From: Actinomycetales bacterium
GTDB lineage: Bacteria > Actinomycetota > Actinomycetes > S36-B12
Reading direction: 5' to 3'
DNA: 64,000 nt
Assembly: GCA_016125355.1 (NCBI GenBank)
Contig: WGLX01000025.1
Span: 1 to 64,000 of the forward strand
The first letter of the stretch is position 1. Every line of letters begins with the position of its first letter. A model generated the notes under the pieces. It ran no database searches. It had not been told where the DNA came from and saw only the letters and a program-made list of their open reading frames with translations. Shown here piece after piece: positions 57,890 through 58,972 of this stretch. A program made the translations under genes and the position numbers.

Positions 57890-58972
57890 GTGCGGAAACT
57901 GGGGGTGATGGCGGGCTGGGTCATCGTCATGCTCCTCGCCGGCTGCACGGGATCACCGGCGGTGGGCGTGCTGCCTCAGGCCTCCGCTCCATCCCAGCCC
58001 CCCAGCGTCCCGCCGACGTCCGACCCGCCATCGACGCCGACCGCCACGTCCGCCGCGACGAGCACGCCGACCCTGCAGCAGCTGTACGAGACCAACCGAG
58101 ACGCGCTGCTGGCCATCGGGACCGAGAAGGGGCCGGCAGCGGCACTGCGGGCACTGGAGCGGCGCATCCGGAAGGTGCCCGCCCTCGAGGGCGTCTGCCA
58201 TCCGATCGCCCACGAGCTCGGGCGCGAGGCGGTCGAGATGGCGGGCGGGGGGATCGCGGGGGCGCAGGCGGCCCTGAAGGCTCGCGATGACGTGTGCGGC
58301 GGCGGCTACACCCACGGGGCGATCGAGGCCGCCCTCGGGGAATCGAAGCACCCGGCGCGCGACCTGCTGCGGATCTGCGCCCCCGCCAACGACGGGTCGT
58401 GCTTCCACGGAGTGGGCCACGGGCTGATGTTCGCCACGAGCATGGACGTCGACCGCTCCCTGACGCTCTGCGACCGGTCGCCGACAGCGACCCTGGCGGC
58501 ACGGTGCGGCGAGGGCGTGTTCATGCAGCTGTTCTCCGCCGACCTGTCGGCCGGGCACACCGGCGACGGCGGGCTCACTGCCGCCGCGGAGGATCCGGCG
58601 GTGGCTGCCGAGGTGTGCCGTGGCACCCGCTCTCCCTACGTCGCCAACTGCTGGTTCTACGCGCCGACGGTGTGGCTGGCGTCCGCGCCGGATGACTTCG
58701 CCGGGGCGATGGAATGGTGCCGCTCCGACGCACGTGGCTCCGGGCGCCAGATGTGCGCCCGCGGCGTCGGCAGTCGGGCCGTCAAGTACCACCCCGACGA
58801 CCTCATGATCGGCGCGACCGTGTGCGCCAGCGCGCCCGCGGTGCGGGACTCGTGCTTCCAGGGCATGGGGTCCTACTCGTCCGTGCACCATCGGGGCAGG
58901 GTCGCTCCCCAGAAGGTCTGCGCGGCCATCCCCGACGCGGCGCTGTCCGCGCGCTGCCGGGAGGCTGTCTAG
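57890..58972 (+). CDS. Cysteine-rich repeat lipoprotein
   Basis: A 360-residue lipoprotein that I cannot place in a family. The lipobox is LLAGC (Cys19). A Pro/Ser/Thr linker covers residues 22-60. Residues 100-360 contain 14 cysteines that fall into seven pairs: 103/136, 163/171, 194/206, 243/254, 277/289, 312/322 and 344/356. The second Cys is often followed by [FGWA]-x-G, as in [18 protein letters not shown] and SCFQGMGS. Pairs recur every 31-49 residues, as in disulfide-braced helical repeats. Several early units have His (CHPIAHE, YTHG, GVGHG). TAGCAT ends six bases before GTG 57890. Confidence 0.75.

Follow-up and report, generated by a model that had tools for sequence, protein, structure and literature searches.

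A candidate copper-binding lipoprotein with seven cysteine pairs and a conserved histidine/methionine set, from an unnamed protein family

Bacterial recognition and uptake of extracellular copper are described as little known in one of the papers on the Ycn proteins, which also reports that YcnI and the CopC domain of YcnJ exchange Cu(II) (PMC12362106). According to a second account, the YcnJ protein of Bacillus subtilis consists of CopC, CopD and YtkA domains, the copper sites of CopC and CopD are needed under copper starvation, and the YtkA domain and the membrane-anchored lipoprotein CtaK are partly redundant in the assembly of CuA (PMC13344008). The CopC/D genes of Nitrososphaera viennensis also respond to copper limitation (PMC7785015), which illustrates this setting without bearing on the domain described here. 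The setting of envelope copper proteins is thus already known; the domain itself is unnamed in the libraries that we searched.

The copper monooxygenases acting on peptidylglycine and dopamine have a beta-sandwich fold, and in the peptidylglycine enzyme the CuH centre has further histidines besides His107, which makes five histidines and one methionine. The other ligands given for this enzyme are Met314, His242 and His244 at CuM, with His107 listed at CuH (PMC6123673). Among exported helical-repeat proteins, the repeats of HcpB and HcpC are reported to be tethered by disulfides (PMC3851747), and the hairpins of Csep1P carry the cysteine pairs Cys59/68, 97/106 and 156/165 (PMC12904459).

The gene analysed here lies in a stretch of 64,000 nucleotides, referred to below as the window, from an Actinomycetales bacterium (phylum Actinomycetota; GenBank assembly GCA_016125355.1, contig WGLX01000025.1, positions 1 to 64,000). 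Its start codon is GTG. An enolase gene (Pfam Enolase_N and Enolase_C) is transcribed away from it and a gene for an MFS transporter towards it; its layout is given in Table 1. A first-pass annotation had read the product as a protein with a lipid anchor, a Pro/Ser/Thr linker and 14 further cysteines, and the translation of the reading frame bears this out. The lipobox L16-A-G-C19 follows a hydrophobic signal, the cysteines after Cys19 are at positions 103, 136, 163, 171, 194, 206, 243, 254, 277, 289, 312, 322, 344 and 356, and the histidine motifs quoted in that annotation (CHPIAHE, YTHG and GVGHG) are all present. Among the gene-like ORFs of 150 residues or more that a heuristic script picked in the window (48 in all; median cysteine fraction 0.6%), the protein is the richest in cysteine, with 4.2%. 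By eye and by pattern, a lipobox was also found at loci L002, L012, L013 and L014, an N-terminal hydrophobic segment without a lipobox at L005, L006, L009, L011 and L015, and a signal-like stretch at L010.

Table 1. Features of the lipoprotein gene, with coordinates in the window.
Feature	Position	Strand	Basis
Whole gene, 360-residue lipoprotein of an unnamed family	57890..58972	+	ORF and translation; homology searches with protein and profiles
Signal peptide with lipobox LAGC (residues 16-19) and lipid-attached Cys19	57890..57946	+	Sequence
Pro/Ser/Thr-rich linker, residues ~20-62	57947..58075	+	Sequence; unconserved among orthologues
Helical-repeat (solenoid) domain, residues 63-360	58076..58969	+	AlphaFold2 model of residues 60-360
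Unit 1 pair C103...C136	58196..58297	+	Jointly lost in L047; sole Cys in 7/7 truncated relatives read
Pair C163-x7-C171	58376..58402	+	Cys in 42/42; placed where one model helix ends and another starts; putative pairing
Pair C194...C206	58469..58507	+	Cys in 42/42; putative pairing
Pair C243...C254	58616..58651	+	Cys in 42/42; putative pairing
Pair C277...C289	58718..58756	+	Cys in 42/42; putative pairing
Pair C312...C322	58823..58855	+	Cys in 42/42; putative pairing
Pair C344...C356	58919..58957	+	Cys in 42/42; putative pairing
H104-x3-H108, proposed metal ligands, unit 1	58199..58213	+	42/42 at both
H142, proposed metal ligand, unit 2 (Cys136+6)	58313..58315	+	41/42; Met in L109, also in L106
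H173-x3-H177, proposed metal ligands, unit 3 (H177 = Cys171+6)	58406..58420	+	42/42 at both
M212, proposed metal ligand, unit 4 (Cys206+6)	58523..58525	+	Met in 39/42, His in 3/42

As had been supposed at first sight, the protein belongs to no family named in Pfam, NCBIfam, PHROG or the PDB sequences, none of which gave a convincing match. For the window protein, Pfam returned no match of any kind up to E 10 (and hence no Sel1, CopC, CopD or YtkA), NCBIfam a single match of 10.5 bits (cut-off 190), and the collection of PDB sequences a single match with an E-value of 1.5. For the 23 members that form the rows of the family profile A2, the best matches were at 0.0066 in Pfam (one member), 0.0023 in NCBIfam (in a family matched by four members) and 0.049 in PHROG (one member); Sel1 was absent from the nine Pfam families matched by these members up to E 1, and the A2 profile found no match among the PDB sequences up to E 10. 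Judged from titles and the beginnings of abstracts, literature searches on the domain or its setting gave no paper that describes the domain, and those with the motif strings gave only papers that were unrelated by title and abstract.

Analysis of the distribution of the family showed that it is patchy. The window protein was matched in eight of 59 near genomes, its own included, and a scan of a broad contig collection with this protein alone gave matches at seven loci; the orthologue search yielded 10 orthologues with 47–54% identity, which together with the window protein make up alignment A1. Genome searches with profiles covered Actinomycetota. Within the phylum, the A1 profile matched 27 of 396 genomes (own genome included), and the A2 profile matched 13 of the 166 genomes of the order (one of them in fragments) and 7/39, 5/66 and 12/149 genomes of three other classes. 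With its occurrence in 13 of 166 genomes of the order, the gene would be dispensable for oxidase assembly in general. Ten of the 27 genomes matched only the N-terminal part of the A1 profile, and all ten belong to a single genus, g31 of family f9. Their short N-terminal relatives (loci L033–L042; 159–175 residues in the seven that were read) have in all seven cases exactly two cysteines, corresponding to C103 and C136, and the CHxxxH motif has become CxSIAR, with loss of the histidine ligands; a degenerate or repurposed form is possible.

Outside Actinomycetota, a family member was found on a plasmid of Gemmatirosa. Only two of 72,556 plasmid records matched convincingly, those of Kitasatospora purpeofusca (8e-43) and Gemmatirosa kalamazoonensis, the latter with an E-value of 0.01 for the window protein and 3e-19 for the L019 protein. 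Four matches on Rhizobium plasmids (E 0.02–0.03) lie inside a cycloisomerase gene and were taken as chance. A phage or mobile origin was also considered and rejected: there was no phage match, the 1 and 26 pattern matches in viral contigs included no confirmed relatives, and plasmid matches numbered two.

The family alignment comprises 42 full-length domains, of which 41 have 19–58% identity to that of the window. It leaves out the masked L020, the frame-broken L021 and L045, loci split over contigs (L032, L059 and L092–L094), fragments (L073–L075 and L085–L087), the short g31 relatives and redundant records of the same genes, as well as L105 and L106, which were missed by the motif filter and, when read separately, agree with the alignment apart from the His/Met swaps described below. 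Seven pieces from the dropped loci L020, L021, L032, L085 and L092 mostly agree with the alignment where the columns are covered. As exceptions, the first L021 piece has Ser at 243, the second has non-ligand letters in what is probably a misaligned end, and a short L085 piece has Pro at 142 and Ala at 180. At least 38 of the 42 rows share with the window protein 14 Cys, nine Gly, five His (104, 108, 142, 173 and 177), two Met (180 and 212), and one each of Ala, Glu and Asp.

All 14 cysteine positions hold Cys in 41 of the 42 domains, the exception being L047, which lacks C103 and C136 jointly. The seven-pair periodicity noted in the first-pass annotation holds, the first cysteines of pairs 2 to 7 being spaced by 31, 49, 34, 35 and 32 residues. 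So does the glycine said to follow the second cysteine often: x-x-G is found at C136, C171, C206, C289 and C322, but not at C254 and C356, and in each of units 2, 3 and 4 the Gly three residues after the second Cys is present in 42/42. When the domain is cut 50 residues before the first motif, a choice on which the count depends, 16 rows have 14 cysteines, 13 rows have 16 and 13 rows have 18, an even number in 42/42. The larger sets mostly include an extra pair before the domain, to which the rows with 18 cysteines add another in a C-terminal extension. Disulfide bracing, as first proposed, is thus indirectly supported by the even counts, the joint loss in L047 and the seven truncated relatives. 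Pairing of C103 with C136 is suggested by this joint loss and by the joint retention of both residues in the seven short relatives, and pairing within the six further pairs by the positions of their cysteines at helix ends in the structure model.

That model, computed with AlphaFold2 for residues 60–360 from an alignment of eight rows, is all-helical (pLDDT 85, pTM 0.79) and contains 18 helical segments of at least four residues. The five models had pLDDT values of 85, 82, 78, 74 and 57, and residues 159–173 of the model (218–232 of the protein), with pLDDT below 50, are unreliable. The predicted all-alpha structure agrees with the helical repeats postulated earlier and, together with generic solenoid matches, points to tandem alpha/alpha hairpins. 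Foldseek searches of the PDB and of viral models returned no match at E ≤ 0.001. In the VIA fold search the best match was a proteasome subunit (Z 7.9; 256 residues, 9.9 Å rmsd), a score that means only a common helical arrangement and is within the range of unrelated helical proteins; Hcp was absent among the 50 matches listed, which excludes nothing. A resemblance to Hcp/Sel1 proteins in plan and not in sequence, as previously suggested, is compatible with these results, since Sel1 is not matched and the fold searches give generic helical matches only.

Besides the cysteines, the family has a conserved set of potential metal ligands. In the A1 alignment all 14 cysteines and eight histidines are invariant; three of the latter (H223, H301 and H333) are unconserved across the 42-row family. 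The remaining five His and M212 are fixed together in 39 of the 42 members (M180 is likewise Met in 39/42), and H142, H177 and M212 occupy an equivalent repeat position, six residues after the second Cys of units 2, 3 and 4. In the divergent clade L105–L109, M212 is replaced by His in 5/5 members, including L105 and L106 from outside the 42-row set. In L106 and L109 this change is accompanied by replacement of H142 by Met, so that five His and one Met are retained, and L105, L107 and L108 have six His at the ligand positions. A shared metal site would be expected to show such an interchange of His and Met between equivalent positions of the repeats. Metal binding by histidines had been proposed for the window protein; the comparison lends it support and extends it to five His and one Met throughout the family, and the fusions described next point to copper. 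The conserved His and Met residues are likely to bind copper.

In seven relatives (L022, L023, L027, L030, L031, L032 and L091) a Pfam CopC domain lies N-terminal to the family domain (2e-13 to 7e-19). Pfam CopD exceeded the cut-off in two of the seven, L030 and L032. The other five gave no Pfam CopD match at the limits of E 1 and 0.01 but match the CopC-CopD part of L030 by phmmer in the larger stretches around L022, L023, L027, L031 and L091 (L051, L052, L055, L056 and L124). None of the seven has a Pfam match to YtkA. The predicted mature CopC begins with His in 6/6 fusions with a readable start (eight were tried). In family f38, a protein kinase gene directly precedes the CopC-fused gene (L051:6367-8103; Pkinase 8e-48 in L051), and L052 and L055 have similar kinase-like starts, as seen by eye, before theirs.

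Other relatives carry Cupredoxin_1 (L017, L018, L019 and L021), with no Cys, by eye, at the place of the type 1 copper ligand, or Cytochrome_CBB3 (L025, L026, L097 and L098 by Pfam, L099 by its CxxCH motif). In these five the CxxCH motif is in a separate N-terminal domain that also retains, as judged by eye, a likely distal Met. L028 and L029, cut by contig ends, were outside the Pfam domain scan. The cytochrome-fused genes of L111 and L112 lie on the opposite strand within an apparent SUF iron-sulphur assembly row, identified by a SufBD match in L112 and otherwise by eye. In the maximum-likelihood tree the eight CopCD rows form a single clade (97/100), the cytochrome rows fall within a second clade (99/99) that includes five members without cytochrome, and the cupredoxin rows sit closest to the clade that holds the window protein and Kitasatospora. 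The architectures can be accounted for by four changes, with the placement of the long branches L047, L046 and L109 unsure. The fusion partners of distant relatives need not reveal the function of the stand-alone lipoprotein.

Copper and respiration genes occur near some family members. In Kitasatospora the family gene is directly followed by one for Caa3_CtaG (7e-74), and a gene for cytochrome c assembly is close by; SCO1 (5e-26) lies 2.8 kb from the gene of L025, in L053; and at about 5.4–7 kb from the sister orthologues L009 and L011 there are two genes for CopC and one for DUF1775 (YcnI). Nine copper/respiration query proteins, derived in part from the loci that they match, found matches outside the family gene in four of 40 loci tested (L009, L011, L046 and L053) and none around the window gene (L060), where the stretch covered was 7.9 kb upstream and 9 kb downstream. 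The window genome has two CopC matches, both on other contigs, and CopC occurs in 70 of the 78 genomes of the host family. The nearness of CopC in L009 and L011 is weak evidence because CopC is near-universal there, and its presence was rejected as a marker for the same reason. SCO1 was matched in 25 of the 78 genomes, in 14 of them over the cut-off, and the sole strong match (5.9e-21) is that of the window genome itself (G000:C4:56385-56816), the next best genome reaching 4e-6. Beta-carbonic anhydrase (Pro_CA) genes are found ~3.3 kb from the family gene at L013:7981-8472 and L014:7279-7770, as the next gene upstream at L046:4945-5541, and in the window at 698-1387, about 57 kb from the family gene. 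At L015 the next gene (8271-8681) encodes a chagasin-type protease inhibitor (Inhibitor_I42, 8e-10).

In the CopC-fused relatives the family domain occupies the slot that YtkA has in YcnJ, and the window protein is a stand-alone lipoprotein in the manner of CtaK. On these grounds we propose, with somewhat more confidence than doubt, that the window protein is an exported, membrane-anchored copper-binding protein that serves in copper capture and hand-off. The choice of a carrier over an enzyme is a weaker conclusion than copper binding. In the proposed mechanism, seven disulfides (C103–C136 and six short-range pairs that would close hairpins) would stiffen a solenoid located outside the membrane. 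H104/H108, H142, H173/H177 and M212, carried by the first turns of a helix from each of units 1 to 4, would come to lie on one face and form one or two copper sites. In the cytochrome-fused relatives, an electron may change the valence of copper during hand-off.

The alternative that best survives, albeit an unlikely one, is a redox copper enzyme in which the solenoid would hold one or two copper centres that receive electrons from cytochrome c or another donor and act on a small extracytoplasmic substrate. The fixed five His and one Met can be compared with the ligands of peptidylglycine monooxygenase, the fused cytochrome c domains have kept their haem motif and probable distal ligand, and conservation of E146 and D269 (38/42 each) exceeds the needs of a simple carrier. 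Transport accords better with the fusions to CopC-CopD and with CtaG, SCO1 and CopC as neighbours, and inspection by eye of the genes listed by the heuristic script showed no conserved metabolic neighbour and, around the stand-alone genes, no conserved operon. At its most far-reaching, and we consider this doubtful, the family would present a new kind of copper centre, in which four consecutive repeats of a solenoid clipped by disulfides would each lend one helix and together supply five His and one Met. Several bacterial lineages would use it with interchangeable partners (an importer, a cupredoxin-like domain or cytochrome c), and the cytochrome-fused members would act as redox cuproenzymes.

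Rather improbable is a protein for another metal (zinc, nickel or iron) or for haem. Conserved histidines alone do not name the metal, and some relatives have a c-type cytochrome domain. Copper is nevertheless favoured by the Met in the ligand set, by the His/Met exchange between positions 142 and 212 and by three partners related to copper or respiration. As to haem, the window protein has no CxxCH attachment motif, for which reason haem binding by its domain, suggested earlier as one role of the histidines, was rejected; the cytochrome c domain of some relatives is a separate one.

At slightly longer odds stands a disulfide-braced scaffold of the Hcp/Sel1 type, which would bind proteins or peptides and in which the histidines would be structural. 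The predicted helical hairpins would suit it, the spacings of 8–12 in six of the cysteine pairs are comparable with those in the Csep1P hairpins, and disulfides tether the repeats of HcpB and HcpC. Yet Sel1 is not matched, and the conserved residues other than Cys and Gly (five His, two Met, Glu, Asp and Ala) are unlike a hydrophobic or charged binding surface. Finally, a thiol-disulfide protein that reduces or oxidizes the cysteines of a partner, for instance in copper insertion, is very improbable, for although the protein is exported and rich in Cys and some relatives have a copper-assembly setting, the even counts and near-total invariance of the cysteines look structural and the window protein's domain has no CxxC motif.

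If the preferred reading of a copper-capturing lipoprotein is true, this family, unnamed in Pfam and NCBIfam, would be a third module of YcnJ-like importers in the actinobacterial families f38, f52 and f54, and its stand-alone lipoproteins would be new copper carriers.

Comparison with the described systems shows both parallels and differences. The CopC-fused relatives resemble YcnJ, as described, in having CopC, then a CopD-like membrane part and then a third domain, with the order and the slot alike, whereas the third domain is a helical Cys/His domain in the relatives and YtkA in YcnJ; the window protein, which has neither CopC nor CopD, is this third domain by itself, attached to a lipid anchor. 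With CtaK and YtkA, in the published account (PMC13344008), it shares membrane anchoring, an extracytoplasmic location and, by analogy, a copper/oxidase setting, and it differs from them in its lack of YtkA or any other Pfam match, its all-helical model and its richness in Cys. The ligand make-up recalls the peptidylglycine and dopamine monooxygenases, unlike the fold, which is predicted to be helical throughout in a family whose profile matches no PDB sequence up to E 10. Helical hairpins, closely spaced Cys pairs and export are common to the window protein, HcpB/HcpC and Csep1P, and the disulfide-tied hairpins and repeats of the latter proteins give its plan a precedent. In contrast to these proteins, the window family lacks Sel1 repeats, matches solved structures only weakly and generically in fold and not in sequence, and has its own fixed set of His and Met.
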